From positions 1-26,749 of the IMG/VR virus record IMGVR_UViG_3300046360_000215: a DNA stretch of 26,749 nucleotides. One strand, given 5' to 3'. This DNA is from a virus. Position 1 is the first letter of the stretch. Every line of letters starts with the position of its first letter. The notes under the pieces were generated by a model. It did not search any database. It saw nothing but the letters and a program-made list of their open reading frames with translations, and was not told the DNA's origin. Of the stretch, positions 5,276-16,708 are shown one piece after another. The translations under genes and the position numbers were made by a program.

Positions 5276-5548
5276 ATGATATCAAAGTATTTAAAAATCA
5301 GCCAAGCTATTGAAATATATAAAGGACTCATGAAGGTAGTTATAACTTATATTAAGGATTTGATCATAGCTATGGGTATTTGGATTGGCATATTTATATT
5401 TTTAGGGATGGTTATATTTTTTGTATGTTCAATCTTTTTGTCATTACAGGCTCTCTTATTTTTTCCGCCTTCTATTTTTCTATATTTACTTATCTTTTTT
5501 GCTTTGATTGAAGAGCCTTGGAAAAATAAAGGAGGACAAATAAAATGA
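5276..5548 (+). CDS. Small two-helix membrane protein
   Basis: A 90-aa protein with two very hydrophobic stretches (around residues 30-52 and 55-78), separated by a short turn with PPS and followed by a basic tail (EEPWKNKGGQIK). It is the first gene of the rightward early operon. The ATG at 5276 has no close Shine-Dalgarno; an ATG at 5330 (MKVVITYIK) follows AAAGGA at good spacing and gives a 72-aa protein that keeps both membrane segments, so the shorter form may be correct. Its stop overlaps the exonuclease start (ATGA). Early expression suggests a host-takeover or superinfection-exclusion role rather than a holin; this is inference. Confidence 0.68.
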   Translation: MISKYLKISQAIEIYKGLMKVVITYIKDLIIAMGIWIGIFIFLGMVIFFVCSIFLSLQALLFFPPSIFLYLLIFFALIEEPWKNKGGQIK

Positions 5549-6983: not shown

Positions 6984-7827
6984 GGCTGAAAGCTTCTCAC
7001 TTACACCAAAGAACTTAGATGAGGCAATGAAATTTGCTGACATACTGGCAAAAAGCACAATAGTCCCTAAAGGCTACCAGGGCAGGCCGGGCGATATATT
7101 AGTAGCTGTGCAGATGGGGGCTGAGGTTGGCCTAAAGCCTATACAGGCACTACAGAACATTGCAGTGATAAATGGCAAGCCCTCAATATACGGGGATGCC
7201 TGCTTAGCCTTGGTTAAGGCACATCTGGCCTTTGAAGATATCAAGGAATATTATATTGATGAAACTGAAACTGCAGTTTGTGAGATTAAAAGGAAAGGAC
7301 AATCATCGCATAAAACAACCTTTAGCAGGAAGGATGCTGAGAAAGCAGGCTTATGGGGGAAAGCAGGTCCATGGACGCAATATACAAAACGTATGCAACA
7401 AATGCGGGCTAGGGGCTTTAACGTCAGGGACACCTTTCCAGATGCATTGCAAGGACTGATACTTGCAGAAGAGGCGCAAGATTATCCAATGGAAGATGTT
7501 ACTCCTACACCGCCAGTATCTAATGCACCTAAAGTATCTAAGGCGGAAAAGTTAGCCAACCTTATCGCGGGTACTAATGATATGGTAGATGTTGATAAGA
7601 CAGAAATAAAAAAGATGATGGATTCAATCCTAGAAACAGAAATACCGCGATCCATATCCCCTTTAGCACTGGAGCTACAGGATTTAATCATTGAAAGGGA
7701 TGTGCCTAAGAAAACAACAGATTTCTGGCTGGAAAGCGCAGGAGTAAAGACACTGGCAGAATTAGACGAAGAAAAACTAGCCAAATGTATTAACTATATA
7801 CAGGAAAAATTTAAACAAGCGGCATAG
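6967..7827 (+). CDS. RecT-like single-strand annealing protein
   Basis: A 286-aa protein using the ATG at 6967 (MNQIVKAESFSLT) behind GGAGCAGGAC, which is better than the longer frame from 6916. The central part fits phage proteins annotated as RecT: GAEVGLKPIQALQNIAVING, then GKPSIYGD, and GPWTQYTKRMQQMRARGFNV. The last resembles the GPW...M..K..R element of E. coli RecT. The C-terminal third (after about residue 180) is a linker plus a helical domain with low conservation. It lies in one operon with the YqaJ exonuclease, so the pair should catalyse double-strand-end resection and annealing during replication or circularisation. Family distance from classic RecT makes the label slightly provisional. 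Confidence 0.78.
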   Translation: MNQIVKAESFSLTPKNLDEAMKFADILAKSTIVPKGYQGRPGDILVAVQMGAEVGLKPIQALQNIAVINGKPSIYGDACLALVKAHLAFEDIKEYYIDETETAVCEIKRKGQSSHKTTFSRKDAEKAGLWGKAGPWTQYTKRMQQMRARGFNVRDTFPDALQGLILAEEAQDYPMEDVTPTPPVSNAPKVSKAEKLANLIAGTNDMVDVDKTEIKKMMDSILETEIPRSISPLALELQDLIIERDVPKKTTDFWLESAGVKTLAELDEEKLAKCINYIQEKFKQAA

Positions 7828-7915
7828 GTTTACGCATAATTACCCGACTATATAATTTCAGTAGTCAAGTAATCCTTTACAACTGGATTATTGCCTTATA
7901 TCAAAGCATCCTTAT

Positions 7916-7990
7916 TGGGATGTAGCCAAGTGGTAAGGCAACGGTTTTTGATACCGTCATTCGTAGGTTCGAGTCCTACCATCCCAGCCA
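7916..7990 (+). tRNA. tRNA-Gln (anticodon UUG)
   Basis: A complete cloverleaf. Acceptor TGGGATG pairs with CATCCCA, discriminator G, and encoded CCA (7988-7990). The D-arm is AGCCAAGTGGTAAGGC-like, the anticodon stem ACGGT/ACCGT has loop TTTTGAT (anticodon TTG at 7948-7950), and the T-arm is GTAGG-TTCGAGT-CCTAC. No mispairs in the acceptor, anticodon or T stems, so it should be functional. It lies between the recombination operon and the toxin-antitoxin genes. It may serve translation of glutamine-rich virion proteins or mark an integration target. Confidence 0.96.
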
Positions 7991-7998
7991 TTTTGCAG

Positions 7999-8034
7999 TT
8001 GACATCCTTACTAGTACGGATTATAATACCGTAC
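7999..8034 (+). promoter_or_regulatory. Consensus promoter and operator of the toxin-antitoxin operon
   Basis: TTGACA (7999-8004), 17-nt spacer, TATAAT (8022-8027): a perfect sigma70 promoter. A perfect inverted repeat GTACGG (8014-8019)/CCGTAC (8029-8034) straddles the -10, as expected for autorepression by a YefM-type antitoxin or antitoxin-toxin complex. Confidence 0.88.
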
Positions 8035-8057
8035 GATATCCAAAAAGGAGGCATATC

Positions 8058-8306
8058 ATGGAATGCATTAGTATAAATGAGGCTAGAAATAACTTATATA
8101 AGCTTGTGAACGAAAGGGATTCTTTAAATGGACCTCTTTTTATTAAAGGCCGTAAAAAAATAGCCGTTCTGGTTTCAAATGAAGATTGGGAAGGCATGCA
8201 AGAAACCTTGTTAATTATGCAGGATAAGGAGTTATACGAATCTATTTTAGAGGCTGCTAAAGAACCTATCAGTGAATGCACTAAATTAGAAGATTTAAAG
8301 TGGTAA
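8058..8306 (+). CDS. yefM: YefM/Phd-family antitoxin
   Basis: An 82-aa protein with the typical N-terminal dimer/DNA-binding part (ISINEARNNLYKLVN, FIKGRKKIAVLVSNEDWEGM) and a flexible acidic C-terminal tail that would wrap the toxin (ELYESILEAAKEPISE). Length matches the family. A strong AAAGGAGG Shine-Dalgarno lies before ATG 8058. The operon promoter upstream carries an inverted repeat on the -10, consistent with autoregulation. The toxin gene follows after 1 nt. The pair may stabilise an extrachromosomal prophage or act in defence against other phages. Confidence 0.9.
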   Translation: MECISINEARNNLYKLVNERDSLNGPLFIKGRKKIAVLVSNEDWEGMQETLLIMQDKELYESILEAAKEPISECTKLEDLKW

Positions 8307-8307
8307 A

Positions 8308-8574
8308 ATGTACGCTATTATATTTAGTAAAAAAGCGAAAAAAGACGCTTTAAAGATGTCTCACTCTGATCTAAAGGAAAAACTAGAAAAGTTGTTGCAC
8401 TCTATACAAGATGATCCATTTAAAAGCCCACCTTCTTTTAAAAAGCTTAATGGAGAACTTGATGGATATTATTCAAGACGTATTAATAAACAACATAGGT
8501 TGGTTTACAAAGTAGACGAATTGAACAAAGCAATAATAATCCTGCGTATGTGGTCGCATTACGGAGATAACTAA
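8308..8574 (+). CDS. yoeB: YoeB/Txe-family toxin (ribosome-dependent mRNA interferase)
   Basis: An 88-aa RelE-superfamily protein. Family signatures: GYYSRRINKQHRLVY (residues 53-67), including R64, the counterpart of E. coli YoeB R65, and the terminal SHYGDN with H84-Y85, the counterparts of H83-Y84. Known relatives cut mRNA in the ribosomal A site. By my alignment the position of the E. coli general base E46 is a lysine here (K45 in SFKKLNG; codon 8440-8442), so catalysis may be weakened or use another acid (E50 is near). Converges on the resolvase gene with one base between the stops. The YoeB label is sure; full activity is not. Confidence 0.9.
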   Translation: MYAIIFSKKAKKDALKMSHSDLKEKLEKLLHSIQDDPFKSPPSFKKLNGELDGYYSRRINKQHRLVYKVDELNKAIIILRMWSHYGDN

Positions 8575-8575
8575 C

Positions 8576-9127
8576 TCATTCCTCGTTCTTATAATTATAG
8601 ATAGTAACTATGGAAATCTTATGCATCTCGCATAATTCCCTTAAAGTGTACCTTTTAGATTCATACATACCCTTGATTAGTTGACGTTCCCTGTAGTTAT
8701 GCTTATAACGCCTGCCACCATATTTTCCTCTCGCCCTTGCCGCTTCAAGTCCAGCCTTAGAGCGTTCTATACTCCTGTTATGTTCAAATTCCGCAAGCAT
8801 ACTGAATATGCTAAACATCATTTGTCCCATAGGGGTATCTGTCTCTATGTTTTCCTTCAAGCTACGGAAGCTTACGCTTTTTTCTTTTAAGCTTGCAAGC
8901 AGATTTATAAGCTCCTTTTGTGTACGTCCTAGCCTGTCTATTGACCATACTATTAAAGTGTCTCCCTCCTTTAAGAACTTAAAGCATTCCTCCAGTTGTA
9001 CTCTGGCAGCCTTAGCTCCACTTATTACCTCCTGGTATATTGGCCTGCACCCCTCCTTTTCCAAAGCGTCAATTTGCATTTTGATATCCTGGCTTGGGGT
9101 GGAAACCCGCGCATACCCAACCTTCAT
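8576..9127 (-). CDS. Serine recombinase, resolvase/invertase family
   Basis: A 183-aa small serine recombinase of normal resolvase length. The N-terminal catalytic domain starts MKVGYARVSTPSQD with nucleophile S9 and R7; WSIDRLGRTQ gives R65 and R68. The long E-helix region (MGQMMFSIFSMLAEFEHN) and the ERSKAGLEAARARGKYGGR linker lead to a C-terminal helix-turn-helix (TLRELCEMHKISIVTIYNYK). All key active-site residues are present. A resolvase would turn dimers into monomers at a res site, an invertase would flip a segment; no invertible segment is obvious here, so dimer resolution of a circular prophage is my preference. The upstream intergenic region contains candidate recombination repeats. 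Confidence 0.93.
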   Translation of the reverse strand: MKVGYARVSTPSQDIKMQIDALEKEGCRPIYQEVISGAKAARVQLEECFKFLKEGDTLIVWSIDRLGRTQKELINLLASLKEKSVSFRSLKENIETDTPMGQMMFSIFSMLAEFEHNRSIERSKAGLEAARARGKYGGRRYKHNYRERQLIKGMYESKRYTLRELCEMHKISIVTIYNYKNEE

Positions 9128-9291
9128 ATTTAGCCTTATAATAATTTATATAAGGGAACTATATAATATAACTTGTTTTTTGTAAAAGGTTATTGTAAGT
9201 TTCCAGATCAATTTTGATACAGGGCGGCAAGTTGTAATAACTTGAGTAGACGGCCATATAATATAAACACTACATATAGTAAGGGATACTA
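9128..9291. promoter_or_regulatory. Divergent intergenic region with dyads (candidate res/operator)
   Basis: Between the divergent resolvase and 101-aa genes. Contains ATCAA-TT-TTGAT (9208-9219), CAAGTT-GTAAT-AACTTG (9228-9244), and ACTA-CATA-TAGT (9269-9280), plus a TATAAT at 9257-9262. Resolvase genes usually sit next to their res site, so these dyads are candidates for that or for operators. Confidence 0.4.
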
Positions 9292-9597
9292 ATGACAGAT
9301 GGAACAAGATTAAAAAATATAGAGGAAAAGTTAGATAGGTTAGAAGACCTTATAATGGGATTAGCTGCAACACAAGCAACACTGAGAGAGACATACAAAA
9401 GTCATAGTGAGGGTAATGGTGGAAGTATTGGAACAAGTTATAGCTATATCATACCTGAAGGCTATAAGGTAGACCCTAGAGGAGGCGTAGTTAATGGAGG
9501 AATGTGGAATGAGTATAATAAGCCCTTTATGCCTCCTATAGTAACTAATGAGGAATACGAAAGGCTCATCAAGGAAAAGAATATAACCAAGGAGTAA
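9292..9597 (+). CDS. Coiled-coil hypothetical protein upstream of the alpha-CTD-like gene
   Basis: A 101-aa protein with an N-terminal coiled coil ([21 protein letters not shown]), a glycine/serine linker and a C-terminal part with [13 protein letters not shown] and [16 protein letters not shown]. Its Shine-Dalgarno (AAGGGA) lies 9 nt before the ATG. It ends one base before the alpha-CTD-like gene, whose GGAG ribosome site lies inside its last codons, so the two are an operon. The N-terminal coiled coils of both proteins might pair. Function unknown. Confidence 0.68.
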
Positions 9598-9598
9598 A

Positions 9599-10096
9599 AT
9601 GTTCAATAAAATAATGAAGGCTGCCAGTGTCCCATCGAAGTCAACGCAATATATTCAAGGTTGTTTTAATAGGCTAGAGGATAGATTGAATATAGATAAA
9701 CTCGTTATAGCAGAAGAGTATGAACTACTTGGCGATAAGATAGAGATAATTAAAGAGCAGATTATAGGTTTGCAATACACTCAAGAAGAAATCCTATATT
9801 TATTACATAGGATTCCTACATTGCGATGGATTTTACAGCAGGAACAAGAAACAAAAAAACCACAGGACAATAAGAACTTTGAGGCTAAGTTAAACGAGAG
9901 TATGCGTATAGATAGGCTTCCCCTTTCTTCACGTTCCATGAATTGTTTAAATAATGAGGGTATAAAAACCGTCCGTGAATTAATAACAAAAACGGACGAG
10001 GAATTGTTAAAAAGCGTTAACTTCGGGCGTAAAAGCCTAAACGAGATCAAAGAAGCACTAAAAGAGCTTGGGTTAACCCTTGGAATGAAGCTATAA
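9599..10096 (+). CDS. RNA polymerase alpha-subunit C-terminal-domain-like protein
   Basis: A 165-aa protein. Residues 1-95 are a helical, probably coiled-coil region ([19 protein letters not shown]). Residues about 103-165 align throughout with the C-terminal domain of bacterial RNA polymerase alpha. All E. coli residues known to contact UP-element DNA have counterparts: R265=R112, N268=N115, C269=C116, G296=G143, K298=K145, S299=S146, E302=E149, and the end GLTLGMKL matches GLSLGMRL. The N-terminal assembly domain of alpha is absent, so this is not a polymerase subunit; it should bind DNA or polymerase partners and could redirect or block host transcription. The role is inference, the homology is clear from the sequence. 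Confidence 0.85.
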
Positions 10097-10273
10097 TTAC
10101 TTCTTCTTCGCCATCTTAACCTTTTTCAATGCAGGATTTTCCTTTTTGGCCTTTGCGGATGACTTACGTGCTGCGGAAGCTAATATTGCTCCAGCACTTT
10201 CCTTTGAGACACCTTCTTTTTTCATTATCCTTTTTTGTTCTTCCTTAAATCCAGGATGCTTTTTCTGTTTCAT
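10097..10273 (-). CDS. Small basic phage protein (58 aa)
   Basis: A 58-aa lysine-rich protein, starting MKQKKHPGFKEEQKRIMKKEG, with the core GVSKESAGAILASAARKSS followed by a basic alanine/lysine tail. The 'HPGF...EGVSKE.AGAILA..ARK.S..AK..NP.LK.V' pattern is one I associate with small proteins found in many phage genomes, usually unnamed. A VSKESAGAILA helix pair flanked by positive charge suggests nucleic-acid or capsid-interior binding. It converges on the alpha-CTD-like gene with no gap, and starts from the dyad-containing region shared with the outer-membrane gene. Confidence 0.75.
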   Translation of the reverse strand: MKQKKHPGFKEEQKRIMKKEGVSKESAGAILASAARKSSAKAKKENPALKKVKMAKKK

Positions 10274-10286
10274 TTTCTAACCATGC

Positions 10287-10306
10287 ATATACTATAAATA
10301 GTATAT
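10287..10306. promoter_or_regulatory. AT-rich inverted repeat between divergent genes
   Basis: ATATACTAT-AA-ATAGTATAT, a perfect 9-bp dyad between the minus-strand 58-aa gene and the plus-strand outer-membrane gene. Its ATATACTATA segment also occurs at 5199-5208 in the early promoter region, so the same repressor could bind both places. It also supplies TATA-type -10 sequences. Confidence 0.5.
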
Positions 10307-10307
10307 T

Positions 10308-10322
10308 AATCAATAGGTTAAG
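10308..10322. repeat. 15-bp repeat, copy 1 (second copy at 17884)
   Basis: AATCAATAGGTTAAG, identical to 17884-17898. On the minus strand it reads CTTAACCTATTGATT, and 13 nt further on comes TATAGT. It lies upstream of the 58-aa minus-strand gene and of the outer-membrane gene on the other strand. Candidate phage promoter element. Confidence 0.55.
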
Positions 10323-10324
10323 AT

Positions 10325-10978
10325 ATGGAAAGCAAATTAAGTGTAATGATGTTGAGTTTATTGCTAACATCTTGTGGCACTAGCGCATATACGGCTGAGA
10401 CTTCATACTATGGCAAGATTAATCTAGGATGGGCATACGTGAAGGATAATAAAATAATAATATCCAATGACTATGGAAGTGCAACATTAAAAGCCAATGG
10501 TAGCGGAAACTTTACTACAGGTGCATTGGGCATTGGGCATAGTTATGGCAATGACTTTAGGACTGACCTGGAGCTATATGTAGATGATGGTGTTAAGGGA
10601 CGAAAACCATTCAATAAAACCTTGATTAATTTTAAGGTAAAAACATATGCTTCTTTCTTTAATGCATATTATGATTTTAGAAATACTACGAACTTTACCC
10701 CTTTTATAATGGGTGGAGTTGGCTATGCCTTCAATAAAGTTGAGATTAGTTCTTGCAGTAAAATCTATAAAAAGAATAGCAATGATGTTGCCTGGCAGCT
10801 TGGAATAGGCACGAGCTATGAAGTTAATCCTAACTTAGCCTTAGAGGCAAGTTACCGTTATATCAACAAGGGCATAAGGGATAGCACCTTATCCGAGTCA
10901 GGCAGCGCAACTATAAATACCTATAAATCAGCAGGGCATATACATGCGTTATTGATTGGGACAAAGATAACTTTCTAG
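10325..10978 (+). CDS. Outer-membrane beta-barrel protein (OmpX/Lom-size)
   Basis: A 217-aa protein with a signal-like N-terminus (LSVMMLSLLLTSC) and alternating beta strands ending in a C-terminal phenylalanine (LLIGTKITF), the BAM recognition signature of outer-membrane barrels. Strands such as YGKINLGWAYVK, TPFIMGGVGYAFNK and NLALEASYRYINKG fit an eight-strand barrel of the OmpX/Ail/Lom type. The signal contains a lipobox LTSC at residues 14-17, odd for a barrel; cleavage could instead occur near AYT-AE. The position in the accessory region fits a 'moron' that changes the surface of the lysogen (phage exclusion, adhesion). It overlaps the opposite gene by 4 nt at a shared CTAG. Confidence 0.82.
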   Translation: MESKLSVMMLSLLLTSCGTSAYTAETSYYGKINLGWAYVKDNKIIISNDYGSATLKANGSGNFTTGALGIGHSYGNDFRTDLELYVDDGVKGRKPFNKTLINFKVKTYASFFNAYYDFRNTTNFTPFIMGGVGYAFNKVEISSCSKIYKKNSNDVAWQLGIGTSYEVNPNLALEASYRYINKGIRDSTLSESGSATINTYKSAGHIHALLIGTKITF

Positions 10979-11397
10979 AAGCAAGGGCTGTTAAAATCGT
11001 TTGAATCATGTGGCTGTATAAGTACCCTGTCTACGTAAACTATTTTCTCAACTTCAACCGGGACTTCTATAAACTTGTCTACATAAATAGTCTTCTCTAC
11101 CTCATAAGGTGTAGGTACAGGGATATTTATAATTTTATCCATATAAATAAGTTTTTCTACTTCATAAGGAATAGAGATATTGAGAACCTTTTCTATGTAA
11201 AAGGGTTTTTCTATCTCAACAATTTTATCTACATAAATAACCTTCTCCACTTCATAAGGAACAGGGATTACTTGTACTTCAGTCTCAAGTTTAGCAAATA
11301 AATTAGATATATGGGTAAATGTAATTGCAGATAGTGCGCCTAAAGCTGCGGTTGCTATCGGTAAAAGGCCGGTAGCTCCTTTTTTGGTATAGTTCAT
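10975..11397 (-). CDS. Membrane-anchored PYEVEK-repeat protein
   Basis: 140 aa from the ATG at 11397, chosen because GGGAGG lies 7 nt before it (a longer frame begins at 11424). One N-terminal membrane segment (residues about 9-29, GLLPIATAALGALSAITF) is followed by an extended domain built of 14-residue repeats of the form PYEVEKxIYVDKxI at residues 47-60, 77-90 and 97-110, with degenerate copies at 61-72 and 114-125. The chain should form a stiff beta or polyproline-rich stalk, presumably in the periplasm. Final residues DSNDFNSPCF include one Cys. I know no exact family. Last gene of the cassette from the promoter at 11953-11981. Confidence 0.78.
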   Translation of the reverse strand: MNYTKKGATGLLPIATAALGALSAITFTHISNLFAKLETEVQVIPVPYEVEKVIYVDKIVEIEKPFYIEKVLNISIPYEVEKLIYMDKIINIPVPTPYEVEKTIYVDKFIEVPVEVEKIVYVDRVLIQPHDSNDFNSPCF

Positions 11398-11484
11398 CGT
11401 TTCGCCTCCCATATAACCGCCCATAAGAATGTATACTTATATATGAGTTTGCGCCTCTTATATTACTTTAGCAAGGCTGAAAGA

Positions 11485-11655
11485 TTATTTCTGTACACAG
11501 ACATATTGGCAGCCACACCAAGTTCCATGAAAGGCAGTTTTAGCCTCTATACCTGCTTGTTCGCAACTTTGCGGGGTTGGGAATTCTATATTCGTTACTG
11601 CTCTACCATCGCTATTGCCACACAGTAATATTAAAATGAATATAGGGGTTGTCAT
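11485..11655 (-). CDS. Small secreted Cys-rich protein
   Basis: 56 aa from the ATG at 11655 (MTTPIFILILLCGNS), which avoids overlapping the preceding gene; a longer frame from 11730 runs across that gene and is unlikely. The first 12 residues are hydrophobic like a short signal or signal-anchor. The remainder contains five cysteines (LLCGN, QSCEQ, TWCGCQY, VCVQ), which suggests disulphide bonds outside the cytoplasm. It starts 5 nt after the stop of the 88-aa membrane gene, with a GGGGTAAG element upstream. A lysis accessory or surface lipoprotein-like role is possible but not shown. Confidence 0.62.
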   Translation of the reverse strand: MTTPIFILILLCGNSDGRAVTNIEFPTPQSCEQAGIEAKTAFHGTWCGCQYVCVQK

Positions 11656-11660
11656 AACTA

Positions 11661-11927
11661 TTAACTTACCCCGAAGATCTTTAAGCCCGAAAGTATAGCT
11701 ATGATCGCCAAGGAGTTGCCAATTATCCAATAGATAAGTTTATTCTCAAGTGCTAATAAACGATTGTCCATATTGGTATCAAAATAATCTTTAGTTATTA
11801 AATGGCTTATATCAAGCTGCATGCCTTCACGGACAACATTAATAATTGCTTCTGCTTGTTCCTTCTTAACCCCTTCTTTAATAAGGGATTCAATCATTGC
11901 ATGTGTATCAAATGTAACTGTTGTCAT
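11661..11927 (-). CDS. DUF1640-like coiled-coil membrane protein
   Basis: An 88-aa protein with TFDTHAMIESLIKEGVKKEQAEAIINVVRE at the N-terminus, a middle KDYFDTNMDNRLLALENK coiled coil, and a C-terminal membrane helix (LIYWIIGNSLAIIAILSGLKIF). This matches the architecture of DUF1640/CCDC90-type proteins, common in alphaproteobacterial genomes and phages. It is the first gene behind a perfect sigma70 promoter, with GAGGAT before the start. It may form ring-like or trimeric membrane assemblies. Candidate holin or accessory in lysis only because a phage lysis set is otherwise missing here. Confidence 0.8.
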   Translation of the reverse strand: MTTVTFDTHAMIESLIKEGVKKEQAEAIINVVREGMQLDISHLITKDYFDTNMDNRLLALENKLIYWIIGNSLAIIAILSGLKIFGVS

Positions 11928-11952
11928 TTTAAGATCCTCATATTCGCCACGA

Positions 11953-11981
11953 ATTATAGCCTATAATGAGGGTTTTGTCAA
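11953..11981 (-). promoter_or_regulatory. Perfect sigma70 promoter of the small membrane-protein cassette
   Basis: Minus strand TTGACA (11981-11976), 17-nt spacer, TATAAT (11958-11953). It would start transcription near 11946 and drive 11927 to 10975 independently of the virion operon, so these genes may be expressed in the lysogen. Confidence 0.9.
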
Positions 11982-11992
11982 TTGGAAGGGAT

Positions 11993-12952
11993 TTATAATT
12001 GATATACTATTATATTAAAACCACTTTCTATAGGGTTGCCGCTTGGATCAAACATTTGCATAACTACACCAAATCCACCATCATTATATGCTTGAAAAGC
12101 TATCCTTTGATTAGATTGGTTTATAGTAGCCACAGGCATAGCATGTGTATCGTTTGCCAGGTGTACAGTAAATTCAAGTTCTATATTGCCAACACCATTT
12201 TTAATTAATGATGCAAATCCAGAACTTTGTATTATCGTATATGTCCCTCCACTTTGGGTGATCCTGGCCATGGCATAAGGTGCGCCACCCCCACCACCTG
12301 CAGCCTGGAAAGTTGGCAATGCTCCTGCACCATTGCTGGTAAGTACTTGCCCTGACGTACCGACTGATGCCACAGATTGCAACGCCGCGGTTGAAGTAGT
12401 GCCGCCACAAAGGACTGCATAAGCTGTAGCGGAAGTTAAACCAGTACCACCATAAGGTACGGTTATATCAGTTCCATTCCATATACCTGTCGCTATTGTG
12501 CCTACCGAAGCTAAACTTGATAAAGTCGTTACAGCTGTATTGACCAGAGTTCCGGTTGTAGGCAATGTAATACTAGTAGAGCCTGTAGTCGTGAATGTAA
12601 GTGGATTCGCCCCGCTTGTAACTAAGTTTCCTCCAAGAGTAATTGTGCTGCCTGTATTCGCTACACCTGTCCCACCATACTGTCCTGTAATTATTGTGCC
12701 ATTCCATGTCCCACTAGATATAGTTCCAAGAGTTGTAATGGAGCTTGCTCCTGTCCATGTGCCACTAGCTATGCTATTGAGGGTAGTTGCAGCCGTAAGC
12801 TGTGTCCTTGACCCTCCGCTATCATCAGTAGCTATTAAAGCCGAACCTACGACATTTAAAAGGCTACGTTGAGTTAGTGAACTACCTGCTTCTTGTATAG
12901 TTGTATAGGCCTGCGATATACCTGAAGAACCGGCGGAAAGTATTTGTGCCAT
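11993..12952 (-). CDS. Tail fibre-like repeat protein A
   Basis: A 319-aa protein rich in G, T, S and N. Residues 1-55 form a likely virion-attachment segment (MAQILSAGSSGISQAYTTIQ, LLNVVGSALIATDDSGGSR). Next are fibre repeats of the type YGGTGVANTGSTITLGGN and TSGANPLTFTTTGSTS, a glycine run (AAGGGGGAPYAMARI), and a C-terminal beta domain that would be the host-contact tip. The attachment segment and repeats match the larger fibre gene 13968-16370. Starts one base after a 112-aa partner gene that is also duplicated. Last gene of the virion operon. Confidence 0.82.
   Translation of the reverse strand: MAQILSAGSSGISQAYTTIQEAGSSLTQRSLLNVVGSALIATDDSGGSRTQLTAATTLNSIASGTWTGASSITTLGTISSGTWNGTIITGQYGGTGVANTGSTITLGGNLVTSGANPLTFTTTGSTSITLPTTGTLVNTAVTTLSSLASVGTIATGIWNGTDITVPYGGTGLTSATAYAVLCGGTTSTAALQSVASVGTSGQVLTSNGAGALPTFQAAGGGGGAPYAMARITQSGGTYTIIQSSGFASLIKNGVGNIELEFTVHLANDTHAMPVATINQSNQRIAFQAYNDGGFGVVMQMFDPSGNPIESGFNIIVYQL
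12478..12690. repeat. Fibre repeat block shared between two fibre genes (copy in fibre A)
   Basis: Codes for the GGTGVANTG...TLGGN...TSGANPLTFTTTGSTS...TLVNTAV segment. A close protein-level relative lies at about 15365-15625 in fibre B, and a partial third at about 14690-14830. The DNA has diverged while the protein is kept. Boundaries approximate. Confidence 0.6.
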
Positions 12953-12953
12953 T

Positions 12954-13292
12954 TTATGTACCCTGAAGGGTTAAATTTAAACTTGTGGTCATGCCCGCAT
13001 TGGAAAGGACACCCCTGATTTGTTGGTTTAATACGACATCGCCAATAGTTACTTGTGAGTTTGATGTAGAGAATGTAAACGGATTTAATGCAGAGTCTGG
13101 TACTGGTATCCATGTGGAATTATCAGGGGCTAATGTTTGTAAAGCCAGAGTTGCCCCTCCCCACGTCCCAAAGGCCGTTACGCATGCTTTTTGATTTGGG
13201 AATGAAAAAATATATGCAGTCCCATTGGCATTGGCTGTTTGTGCAGTGAATAGCCAAATTGGCGCAGTATGCTCTACTGTTGACTCTGTCAT
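12954..13292 (-). CDS. Fibre-associated structural protein (paralogue 1)
   Basis: A 112-aa all-beta protein (APIWLFTAQTANANGTAYIF, LALQTLAPDNSTWIPV, LNLTLQGT). It shares its whole pattern with the 16370-16708 product: F/YPN+K...V.GT..GA.+.LQTLAP....W+.VP.S and a final L.V/T.L. In both places the gene directly precedes a fibre gene (here 1 nt). It probably forms part of the fibre base or attachment, or assists its folding. Function inferred from context only. Confidence 0.75.
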   Translation of the reverse strand: MTESTVEHTAPIWLFTAQTANANGTAYIFSFPNQKACVTAFGTWGGATLALQTLAPDNSTWIPVPDSALNPFTFSTSNSQVTIGDVVLNQQIRGVLSNAGMTTSLNLTLQGT

Positions 13293-13306
13293 GCTGTTCC
13301 TTTGGA

Positions 13307-13534
13307 TTAATCAATTTCCCGATCTTGTTCCATGCGAGCCATTTTCTTTTGACCCATGCGTGAGGATTTGTCATACATAGACTTGCCCATGGATTCAACA
13401 CCACCTACATGGATACCACCCACAACACAATCTTTGAAATTGTAATGTTCCTTTTGGGCTGGGGAATAGTCAAAATCATCCTTGATCTTGGCCTTCATAC
13501 TGCCAGAAAAGTTTTTTGATTTATCGTAGGACAT
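13307..13534 (-). CDS. Small basic virion-operon protein
   Basis: A 75-aa protein starting MSYDKSKNFSGSMKAKIKDDFDYSPAQ with a basic, methionine-rich tail (MGKSMYDKSSRMGQKKMARMEQ). A GGIHVGG segment is in the middle. No family recognised. It sits between the two fibre cassettes, with 14 nt to the next gene and 17 nt after the previous one. Upstream of its start is ATTCAATAGGTTAA, a near copy of the 15-bp repeat found at 10308 and 17884; the AGGTTAA part could serve as ribosome site. Confidence 0.68.
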   Translation of the reverse strand: MSYDKSKNFSGSMKAKIKDDFDYSPAQKEHYNFKDCVVGGIHVGGVESMGKSMYDKSSRMGQKKMARMEQDREID

Positions 13535-13551
13535 TTAATTAACCTATTGAA

Positions 13552-13965
13552 TTACTTATCTTTTGAGGCTAGCACTTCTTTTATTTCACGTAAAGACTTT
13601 TGAAGGTCTGGCATCATCATCATGAAACCTTTAATTGAGTTAAGGGCTGCTTGCATGTCGCTTGTTTGTAGGCTGCTTTTATCCTGTATTGTTGCAACTT
13701 CCTTAGTAAGGGTTTCAACTTTCTTTGCCATGTCCTGTATGCTTATTTGTGGTTCAAGAGGCTGTATTGGAGGCTTAGGCACTGTAATATGAGGGACAAA
13801 ATAGCCTTTTTTCTCATCAAACTTTAAAGGCTTTGCATCTTTTATAGTTGCCACATCCACGGCATCGTCAATCTCGCCCTTTGTCTTTAGCGCAGCAATG
13901 AAATCTGCATCGGCCTCAATAATATTTATAAGCTTTTTATTTATATATATATGATAGGTCGCCAT
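13552..13965 (-). CDS. Coiled-coil protein between fibre genes
   Basis: A 137-aa protein. The N-terminal half has beta-like segments (YHIYINKKLINIIEADADFIAALK) and a proline-rich linker (VPKPPIQPLEPQ). The C-terminal half is a coiled coil (MAKKVETLTKEVATIQDK, LQKSLREIKEVLASKDK) with a methionine run (FMMMMPDLQ). It starts 2 nt after the large fibre gene ends, so it is co-translated with it. It could be a fibre chaperone or trimerisation helper, as such small coiled-coil proteins often follow fibre genes; that role is inferred. Confidence 0.7.
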   Translation of the reverse strand: MATYHIYINKKLINIIEADADFIAALKTKGEIDDAVDVATIKDAKPLKFDEKKGYFVPHITVPKPPIQPLEPQISIQDMAKKVETLTKEVATIQDKSSLQTSDMQAALNSIKGFMMMMPDLQKSLREIKEVLASKDK

Positions 13966-13967
13966 AA

Positions 13968-16370
13968 CTATGACCTCTTAATAAATTCTGTAACTACACA
14001 ATATCCGGCTGTACCAAGTCCACCTACAAATCCACTAGCATTAGCTACCTGGCTAGCACCTTGACCACCCGAACCAAAACCTGATGCTGAGGCACCATTT
14101 CCATTAATTCCTCCATCGGCACCCGATCCATACATGGAGTTAGCTCCTGCTCCTGGTATTATTATGGTTCCACCAAAAGAAGCTATACCCGCTCCACTAA
14201 GATAGCCTGGTATATTTATATTACCACCACTTGCAGTTCCTCCAGAAACTCCATTAACAGCATTAAAGCCATTAGTTCCAGTCGATCCATTACCCCCTGT
14301 CCCTCCATTTGCAGTTAGGATAGCTCCAAAAGTAGAATTACCGCCACTTGTGCCGTTACCTCCACTACTACTGCCACTTGTTCCTGCTGCTCCCAGAGTA
14401 ACAGTTTGTGAAGCCCCTATTGTTGCTGCAATTGTGGTTAACCTACAATATCCTGCACCTGCACCACCACTAGCGGCTGCAGCAAAAAGAACATTGCCAG
14501 CTACACCACCACCTCCTCCACCGCCTCCTAAAAGCTCAATTGTACAATAGGTCATGCCAGAAGTTGGTGTATATGTACCTGATGAAGTGAAAACCTGGAC
14601 AACTACTTGATACAAACAAACATCAACTCCAAGGTTTGTCCTGGAAGTTGCTGCACTAGAAACATCGCTTAAGTTATTCGTATTAGCAAGTAATGTGCCA
14701 GATGTCGGTAAAGTAACACTAGTGGTATTACTTAATGTCAATGTTGCGGCAAATGCACCACTAGTAGTTAGGTTGCCTCCAAGTGTAATCGTCTTACCTG
14801 TATTAGCTACGCCAGTACCACCTAAAGCACCTGTTACAACAGTAAAGCCGGAAGCTAAAGAACCGGAAGCCAATGCTCCTGTGCTTGTAATATTGCTTTG
14901 TACAGCAGAAGGGAGGGTTGAGCTTATGGATGGTACACCACCAGAGGAAGTTATCAATGTGCCGCTATTGCCAGTAGTAACTCCCGCAATGGTATTAGCC
15001 CCAGATGAATATAGTAACTGGTTGATTGTGGTGGTGGCTGGATAGGTGGCCGTAGACCATGCTGGGGCGGCAGTGCTACCAGAAAGCAATACTTGGTTTG
15101 CAGTTGCAGTACCTGCTAAAATTGCACCTGCCGAACCGCTGGAATAGAATATACCACCATTACTTGCAGTCAGGTTAGCATTAGTGCCACCATTAGCTAA
15201 ACTTATTGGGAAAGATGGTAGCTGGGAAGTAGTGGCTAATGTTCCTGAGGTCGGGAAGGTAACTGCTGTAGTATTAGTCATTGTGAAAGTAGAACCAAAA
15301 GCACCTGAAGTTATAAGGCTTCCACCTAAAGTTAGTGTATTACTTCCATTATTTACCCCAGTTCCGCCATAGGTACTACCTATTAATGTTCCGTTCCATC
15401 CCCCTGTTGTAATCGTACCAATTGAGACAAGGCTTGAAAGCGTAATAACCGCTGTATTGACCAATGTCCCTGAAGTAGGCAACGTAACACTGGTAGAACC
15501 TGTAGTTGTAAAGGTAAGCGGATTAGCTCCACTGGTAGTTAAAGCTCCGGCAGTTAGTATATTCCCACCAAGGGTAATAGTCAGGCCAGTATTCGCTACT
15601 CCAGTTCCCCCGTACGTTCCTACTAAAGGAGTAGTCAGGGCTATTACATTGCCCGTTTTGGTAATAGGGGCAGTAACACTAATATTCGCAGCACTGTTAA
15701 AGGCACTGAATATAATTGCCGTTGTCCCGATTGTGAATGGCCCTGATCCCGTTTCCACATATAGGTTAGTTGCATTTACCGTACCCTCGGATATCACCGT
15801 ATAAGAACCTTCAACGACACCATTAGAAGCCGCAGTGTTATAATCAGTCGCACGGGTCATCACCCAATTAGTGGAGTTACTGCCGATATTGGTTACTGTG
15901 TATATCCCATTTTGGAAAGTACTGACCTGGTCTTTTACCAATACACGGTCAGCCACTGCCATTGTAACGCCATCTAAAACTAAAGCCGCTTGTGAGCCTG
16001 CATTAGTCAGGGTTGCACCAACACCAGCAGTGCCATTACTATAAGTAACTGTCAATGCGGCTGTAGTGCCTGCACGGCAGGAAGTCCGAGGGGACAGGCC
16101 AGCAGAAAGGGAGTCTACATATTCCTTTGTGGCCGCTTGCAAGCCCGTTATAGGGTCTCCACTTAGGATTAATGGTCCTGTCATGGTACTTCCAGCCAGA
16201 TGTACCATAGCAGGCAAAGTTACATTAGTGCGGAAATTAGAAGGGTCGTCGGCAACAGTAAAATCAACGCCCACAAAATTTAGGATTCTCTCTTGTGCTA
16301 CCGAAGTACCATTGCCTTGTATAGTGATATAAGCACTTGTAGCATCTAATAAGCTTGCAAATTGCGCCAC
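13968..16370 (-). CDS. Large tail fibre with glycine-rich C-terminal domain (fibre B)
   Basis: An 800-aa fibre with a GTG start at 16370 overlapping the stop of the upstream paralogue gene (TAGTG). Order: attachment segment (1-60, AYITIQGNGTSVAQERILNF), a segment seen in many phage fibres (AATKEYVDSLSAG, then VADRVLVKDQVSTFQNGIYT), a series of GGTGVANTG/TLGGN and TFPTSGTL repeats, and from about residue 600 a glycine-rich domain (FTSSGTYTPTSGMTYCTIEL then a GGGGGGGG run). That domain resembles the polyglycine receptor-binding tips known in phage adhesins. The tip probably decides host range. Two Cys flank the start of the tip (YC and GYC). Confidence 0.9.
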   Translation of the reverse strand: MAQFASLLDATSAYITIQGNGTSVAQERILNFVGVDFTVADDPSNFRTNVTLPAMVHLAGSTMTGPLILSGDPITGLQAATKEYVDSLSAGLSPRTSCRAGTTAALTVTYSNGTAGVGATLTNAGSQAALVLDGVTMAVADRVLVKDQVSTFQNGIYTVTNIGSNSTNWVMTRATDYNTAASNGVVEGSYTVISEGTVNATNLYVETGSGPFTIGTTAIIFSAFNSAANISVTAPITKTGNVIALTTPLVGTYGGTGVANTGLTITLGGNILTAGALTTSGANPLTFTTTGSTSVTLPTSGTLVNTAVITLSSLVSIGTITTGGWNGTLIGSTYGGTGVNNGSNTLTLGGSLITSGAFGSTFTMTNTTAVTFPTSGTLATTSQLPSFPISLANGGTNANLTASNGGIFYSSGSAGAILAGTATANQVLLSGSTAAPAWSTATYPATTTINQLLYSSGANTIAGVTTGNSGTLITSSGGVPSISSTLPSAVQSNITSTGALASGSLASGFTVVTGALGGTGVANTGKTITLGGNLTTSGAFAATLTLSNTTSVTLPTSGTLLANTNNLSDVSSAATSRTNLGVDVCLYQVVVQVFTSSGTYTPTSGMTYCTIELLGGGGGGGGVAGNVLFAAAASGGAGAGYCRLTTIAATIGASQTVTLGAAGTSGSSSGGNGTSGGNSTFGAILTANGGTGGNGSTGTNGFNAVNGVSGGTASGGNINIPGYLSGAGIASFGGTIIIPGAGANSMYGSGADGGINGNGASASGFGSGGQGASQVANASGFVGGLGTAGYCVVTEFIKRS
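15365..15625. repeat. Fibre repeat block (copy in fibre B)
   Basis: Protein-level counterpart of 12478-12690: YGGTGVANTGLTITLGGN, TSGANPLTFTTTGSTS, TLVNTAV. Possible site of recombination between fibre genes. Boundaries approximate. Confidence 0.6.
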
Positions 16371-16708
16371 TAATATATCTCCAGGGATACATTGAGCGTA
16401 GTACTCCCACCTGAACCACTTTGTACAGCCCTGACCTGTTCATTTTGGACAAGGTATTCTAAAGTCCCTTGTCCATTATTGGAGGCAAAAGTCATTGTAA
16501 CGCCACTATTAGAATATGGCACATCTATCCAAACGGGAGGGCTACTTTGTGGGGCTAATGTCTGGAGCTTGATTGAAGCCCCGTTAAAAGTACCCCATAC
16601 TTTCACTATTGCCGTCTTGTTTGGATAGTTAACTATAACAGGTGTACTATTGCCATCTGTTGTTTGATTGGTGAAAAGGAAGTAGGTATTTGATTGGGTA
16701 GCGGCCAT
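16370..16708 (-). CDS. Fibre-associated structural protein (paralogue 2)
   Basis: A 112-aa all-beta protein, the same length and layout as the 12954-13292 product: VIVNYPNKTAIVKVWGTFNG, KLQTLAPQSSPPVWIDVPYS, and a final TTLNVSLEIY. It overlaps the GTG start of fibre B, so translation is coupled. The pairing with a fibre gene in both cassettes suggests that each fibre needs its own copy of this protein. Confidence 0.76.
   Translation of the reverse strand: MAATQSNTYFLFTNQTTDGNSTPVIVNYPNKTAIVKVWGTFNGASIKLQTLAPQSSPPVWIDVPYSNSGVTMTFASNNGQGTLEYLVQNEQVRAVQSGSGGSTTLNVSLEIY

Follow-up and report, generated by a model that had tools for sequence, protein, structure and literature searches.

A promoter-headed gene set with a DUF1640-like gene as a candidate envelope cassette of a podovirus-like phage

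The DNA analysed here, referred to as the window, is a virus record of 26,749 bases with 36 gene models and a G+C content of 0.402. Three small genes lie in line on its minus strand: a CCDC90/DUF1640-like gene, a gene for a five-cysteine peptide and a gene for a membrane-anchored repeat stalk. An outer-membrane beta-barrel gene converges on the stalk gene from the plus strand, which also carries a gene resembling the C-terminal domain of the RNA polymerase alpha subunit (alpha-CTD). The trio is headed by the perfect sigma-70-type promoter TTGACA-N17-TATAAT that the first-pass annotation had claimed upstream of it (11953..11981, minus strand); TTGACA occupies 11981-11976 and TATAAT 11958-11953, the spacer is 17 bases, and the site lies 25 bases upstream of the DUF1640-like start codon.

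The DUF1640-like gene (11661..11927, minus strand) encodes 88 aa. The protein matched PF07798 (CCDC90-like) with E 1.3e-6 and 28.8 bits over profile positions 1-41 of 175, which is under the curated Pfam cut-off of 33.5 bits, so it is named "DUF1640-like". Its sequence relation to CCDC90/DUF1640 members was also seen with phrog_17872 (E 6.8e-8), an orthologue in the related phage G001 (61%), the human CCDC90B chain of PDB 6h9m (E 0.0032) and a profile built from 115 relatives, the window protein itself among them (E 7.6e-28). The predicted layout consists of an N-terminal head (FDTHAMIESLIKEG), a short neck, a coil and a C-terminal membrane helix, with a hydrophobic segment at residues 64-82; the PF07798 match and this segment uphold the first-pass description of a DUF1640-like membrane protein. 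The predicted model has helices at 8-17, 22-36 and 46-84 (pLDDT 64), and a Foldseek search with it returned no match at E <= 0.001.

In the portions of the literature available, the CCDC90/DUF1640 family is found in prokaryotes and mitochondria (PMC4786415, PMC7519068) and has a described beta-layer motif (PMC4786415). Extracts of two further papers report a DUF1640 gene in a Liberibacter prophage (PMC5291501) and give the DUF1640 label to a tail-fibre protein of phage AKFV33 (PMC3326045). The trio had been called unrecognised, which stands for the stalk and for the set as a whole but not for DUF1640, given these two phage reports. The cassette is not described in the DUF1640/CCDC90 phage literature as judged by title or listing.

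The second gene (11485..11655, minus strand) encodes a 56-aa peptide with a short hydrophobic N-terminus and a match to phrog_5579 (E 2e-5). Of the earlier wording "five-cysteine secreted peptide", the five cysteines are present, and "secreted" is inferred from the hydrophobic start. Judged from its sequence, the peptide is probably exported; no hydrophobic segment exceeds the 19-residue threshold, and the ILLC motif does not, by eye, fit the consensus lipobox. No homologues were found in viral contigs, and among annotated phages the best match was a karamvirus hypothetical protein at E 0.02, with the others weaker. A scan for phrog_5579 among 21 records was positive in one, the window itself. 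One karamvirus match is encoded at a distance of three genes from a protein whose annotation notes similarity to T4 Sp, which is a lead only.

The stalk gene (10975..11424, minus strand) encodes 149 aa when read from its first ATG; the ribosome site is better for 11397, which would give 140 aa and is the likely start. The earlier claim of a membrane-anchored repeat stalk was confirmed by one hydrophobic segment near the N-terminus, preceded by a net +2, and by five [YF][VIM][DNE][KR] repeats, a count reached in 0 of 20,000 shuffles. The VEK/YVDK repeats extend over about 100 residues, and a single cysteine lies near the C-terminus. The model of the stalk alone was poor (pLDDT 36), and the repeats were not predicted to be helical. 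Kinship with a 169-aa protein of G001 was rejected (BLASTP E 2.6), and stalk matches in contigs L154-L156 were set aside as low-complexity convergence in unrelated phage proteins.

The convergent gene (10325..10978, plus strand) encodes a 217-aa outer-membrane beta-barrel (PF13505, E 8.4e-13) and overlaps the stalk gene by 4 bases. Among its matches in annotated plasmid records are, at about 30%, porin-family and PagN-like proteins. The barrel protein begins with LLTSC, which fits the lipobox consensus. The alpha-CTD-like gene (9599..10096, plus strand) matches PF03118 with E 6.8e-22; a phage protein of this type could bias host transcription.

A capsid scan recovered the relatives G023 and G025, and G001 again. 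In G025 (contig L149) the fibre genes are followed by a DUF1640-like gene, a 50-aa membrane peptide, a stalk, a convergent barrel and an alpha-CTD-like gene, which is the order and orientation of the window. The stalk homologue (L149:15752-16138) was found with E 1.4e-5 and 3.7e-7 in the two search directions and matches at 51% over the best stretch; the barrel homologue (L149:16135-16776) shares the 4-base overlap and has no cysteine corresponding to that of LLTSC. Overall, identity of stalk and barrel is about 40-50%. The alpha-CTD-like homologue (L149:16847-17554, E 2e-6) adjoins the barrel gene in G025, whereas one small gene separates them in the window. The G025 DUF1640-like gene has diverged but was recovered with E 8.8e-6 among 1,089 ORFs by a profile built without it, and the two middle peptides are not homologous by sequence. 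Homologues of the stalk, barrel and alpha-CTD-like protein are absent from G001 and G023, and the DUF1640 profile found no member in G023. A search for the trio in relatives, set beforehand as the test of conservation, was thus positive in G025 despite the non-homologous middle peptide and negative in G001 and G023. The feature is a five-gene neighbourhood, conserved in one near relative, G025: the trio of the first-pass annotation is real, but the set is larger, the barrel and alpha-CTD-like genes having been missed. The reading of the set as a self-promoted, envelope-directed cassette was supported.

Perfect promoters with spacers of 16-18 bases number two in the whole window against 0.06 expected, and none of 100 shuffles of the window contained two. 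The second (7999-8027, plus strand) is upstream of a YefM/YoeB-like toxin-antitoxin pair; tRNA-Gln, this promoter and the pair follow one another at 7916-8574. A looser scan of 7700-14100 gave 21 promoter-like sites, with 21.4 expected by chance, so that only the perfect sites stand out. A simple minus-strand scan found no terminator-like site 3' of the trio. The trio is poorer in G+C than the window, at 0.359 against 0.402, although 39 of 258 segments of the same size are as low.

We surveyed DUF1640 genes in 80 of 151 genome loci and in 47 viral loci. They are common on chromosomes, and matches to the stalk or the cysteine peptide among 136 DUF1640 loci came only from two copies of the window locus. 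After near-duplicates were collapsed, strong promoter-like sites were found ahead of 19 of 106 DUF1640 genes (the window gene included) and 27 of 771 controls drawn from the remaining genes of these loci (odds ratio 6.0, p 2e-7). TTGACA within 120 bases upstream was found for 21/106 and 20/771, respectively, and the G+C of the two upstream sets was similar (0.44 and 0.45). G001 has two DUF1640-like genes; they are placed between capsid and scaffold, run on the opposite strand and come after a ParD-like gene (PF11903, E 1.5e-7), and TTGACA-N17-TACAAT lies 25 bases ahead of the start of this ParD-DUF1640 pair. The G025 gene has TTGCAA-N17-TATACT at the same distance, a weaker site whose score is reached by 77 of 771 controls. 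Taken with the family enrichment, these sites make an own promoter look like a trait carried with DUF1640 genes. A general link of DUF1640 with toxin-antitoxin genes, hinted at by G001 and some viral loci, was rejected because no partner recurred: the neighbours of genome-borne copies are varied, and among 117 of the 124 neighbours listed, each Pfam family had at most two matching members.

In this phage group DUF1640 genes occupy different slots, after the fibres in the window and G025, and between capsid and scaffold against the late direction in G001 and in L004, a contig of a close relative (L004:5798-6031 and, for G001, L008:12804-13369). In G001 the slot after the fibres is taken by the 169-aa protein, which is of membrane type, together with members of GTA_holin_3TM and Phage_lysozyme. 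Both holin and lysozyme families are carried by G001 and G023 and neither by the window and G025, so that stalk/barrel and holin/lysozyme were mutually exclusive in all four phages with the slot sequenced (exact one-sided p 1/6). With four genomes this exclusivity is weak, and lysis genes could lie beyond the ends of G025. G023, whose ends share a 99-base repeat, is probably complete; G025 and G001 have no such repeat. L161, which carries GTA_holin_3TM and Phage_lysozyme, was kept out of the comparison of four phages because its contig does not include the fibre region; L162 and L164 are fragments lacking the post-fibre region, and L165-L220 are distant terminase relatives. A DNA-invertase-type serine recombinase (8576-9127; phrog_125, E 1.1e-61) is encoded near the fibre genes. 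Phase variation of the trio by this recombinase was considered and rejected, as inverted repeats within 7800-16500 are short and imperfect and none clearly frames the trio.

The first-pass statement that the window has no lysozyme held in family searches and in PHROG scans of all 36 gene models. Five muralytic families (PF00959, PF01510, PF05838, PF13539 and PF01464) had no match in the window record, G002 or G026, so that no muralytic enzyme of a holin-endolysin cassette was recognised in the window, and no lysis PHROG was hit by the window's gene models or by the seven L004 genes ahead of the capsid gene. A virion transglycosylase domain is present in G025 and G001 and was not found in the window record. 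L004 is identical to the right end of the window over 4,473 bases (100%); its further course carries the genes for capsid, a second DUF1640-like protein, scaffold, portal and a RelE-like pair. L092 joins the end of L004 (127 bases, 100%) to the left end of the window (644 bases, 90.8%, inside the terminase gene). The bridge places about 7.3 kb between the window ends in a close relative, roughly 34 kb in total; it comes from a related strain, so the window phage itself may differ there. The absence of recognised lysis genes extends past the window into these bridging contigs. Three proteins in these sequences deserve mention in their own right. One is a 90-aa protein with three hydrophobic segments and no family, encoded just ahead of RecE (5276-5548), a possible unrecognised holin. 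Another, of 476 aa (L004:619-2598), has a glycine-rich start, a long charged coil and no Pfam or PHROG match; it is colicin-like in looks only. It is followed by a 133-aa exported-looking protein.

We favour, with a probability of about one half, the reading that the set is a moron-type accessory cassette of a podovirus-like phage that remodels the envelope of the infected cell and is expressed outside the late programme. The moron concept is set out in the accessible part of PMC6469090. The trio has its own promoter by sequence, and stalk, barrel and alpha-CTD-like genes are absent from some close relatives. The varied neighbours of DUF1640 genes and their differing slots within this phage group also speak for it. 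A toxin-antitoxin pair, which is typical moron content, follows the one other perfect promoter of the window, and the strong promoter-like sites of the family together with the G001 orthologue, placed elsewhere behind a ParD-like gene, make the DUF1640 gene moron-like rather than lysis-like. Expression outside the late programme is plausible from the perfect promoter, the G001 and G025 sites and the family enrichment. The host housekeeping polymerase would read the promoter in lysogens or at an early stage of infection, with no dependence on the late genes. Against this reading, neither a repressor nor an integrase was recognised in the window, so that a lysogenic life is an assumption. The trio also points in the late direction and comes right after the fibre genes, so late read-through could express it as well; no terminator-like site follows it on its strand, and the G025 promoter is weak. 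For a casual moron, moreover, the module is more constant than expected, being kept in two phages in the slot of the G001 lysis genes.

Under this favoured reading, the DUF1640-like protein would form an oligomeric coil whose C-terminal end is anchored in the inner membrane. The stalk would be held by its N-terminal anchor, with the positive flank inside, and would extend as a repeat rod through the periplasm, which about 100 repeat residues could span if extended. The barrel, made from the opposite strand, would sit in the outer membrane, a role that its family (the broad OMP_b-brl) and topology fit. The set may alter the envelope, by analogy with the lysogenic-conversion proteins Lom and Bor of lambda, most likely blocking entry or adsorption of competing phages or stabilising the envelope; superinfection exclusion is possible.

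One competitor is a chance run of unrelated small morons with no shared function, which we regard as doubtful. The non-homologous middle peptides, the occurrence of DUF1640 elsewhere without stalk or peptide, and the stalk-like repeats that arise in unrelated phage proteins (L154-L156) are what such a run would give, but five genes keep their order and orientation in G025, down to the 4-base overlap. Still less probable is that these are virion or tail-fibre accessory genes of the late operon with an incidental promoter. Their late direction directly 3' of fibre genes, in a region of variable fibre content, and the DUF1640 label of the AKFV33 tail-fibre protein (PMC3326045) agree with this; yet every product of the trio has a membrane anchor or an exported look, the promoter is perfect, and G001 and G025 have sites at the same 25-base distance. 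As far as the source's extract goes, the AKFV33 protein is a long coiled-coil fibre protein, unlike the 88-aa tail-anchored window protein.

We consider it unlikely that the set is a lysis or egress device replacing holin and endolysin, by which virions would leave the cell with no phage lysozyme involved, perhaps where the host is poor in peptidoglycan. Here the DUF1640-like protein would perturb the inner membrane, the stalk would act approximately as an i-spanin and the barrel would be its outer-membrane partner. The holin and lysozyme genes in the corresponding slot of G001, the exclusivity in two and two phages and the lack of a match to five muralytic families speak for it, as does the one periplasmic cysteine kept by both stalks, disulphides being a reported theme in two-component spanins in the part of PMC6139136 available. 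On the other side, G001 combines the 61% DUF1640 orthologue with a complete lysis cassette, chromosomes commonly carry DUF1640 genes, and it would be dangerous to keep a lysis gene under a perfect promoter that is constitutively active. Four phages are also too few, G025 may be incomplete and have lysis genes on the part that is missing, a clear lipoprotein partner is lacking and the stalk repeats are unlike a coiled coil in appearance. The earlier suggestion of lysis timing received no direct support. A broader reading, similarly improbable, is a lineage that has dispensed with holin and lysozyme and in which an envelope-spanning set of inner-membrane coil, exported peptide, inner-membrane rod and outer-membrane barrel would open or bridge both membranes, with no phage peptidoglycan hydrolase, for progeny release or entry control.

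Proteins of the DUF1640/CCDC90 type occur widely, in bacteria as well as in mitochondria, the bacterial ones being without a stated function in the available portions of the literature found. The window offers a compact setting, with a DUF1640-like protein, a proposed periplasmic rod and an outer-membrane barrel, a strong promoter and no recognised lysozyme; whether the outcome is conversion of the envelope or release without lysozyme, the family would gain a role that can be tested.

Compared with known systems, the DUF1640-like protein resembles CCDC90/DUF1640 members (MCUR1, CCDC90B, yeast Put6/Put7) in the FDTH...L...G....QAE head motif and in the predicted neck, coil and C-terminal membrane helix. 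It differs in being under the Pfam cut-off, only 88 aa long, phage-borne and part of a cassette, and its neck reads LITKDY instead of [aliphatic]-A-T-K-[polar]-[DE], a motif that the G001 orthologue has (VATKHD). The holin-lysozyme cassettes of G001, G023 and L161 share the post-fibre place in G001 and have no homology to the trio. Two-component spanins (Rz/Rz1) likewise set an inner-membrane-anchored periplasmic protein with a single periplasmic cysteine beside an outer-membrane protein; in the window, however, VEK/YVDK repeats take the place of coiled coils, the candidate partner is a barrel where spanins use a small lipoprotein, the stalk and barrel genes are convergent, and no endolysin lies nearby. 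Lambda Lom and Bor are lysogenic-conversion proteins, and to our knowledge neither has a counterpart of the stalk. Unlike lom and bor, the window set is multi-gene, occupies two strands, includes a stalk and has no terminator that we could find; like such morons, it has its own promoter, is accessory and envelope-directed, and lies among or after tail genes.
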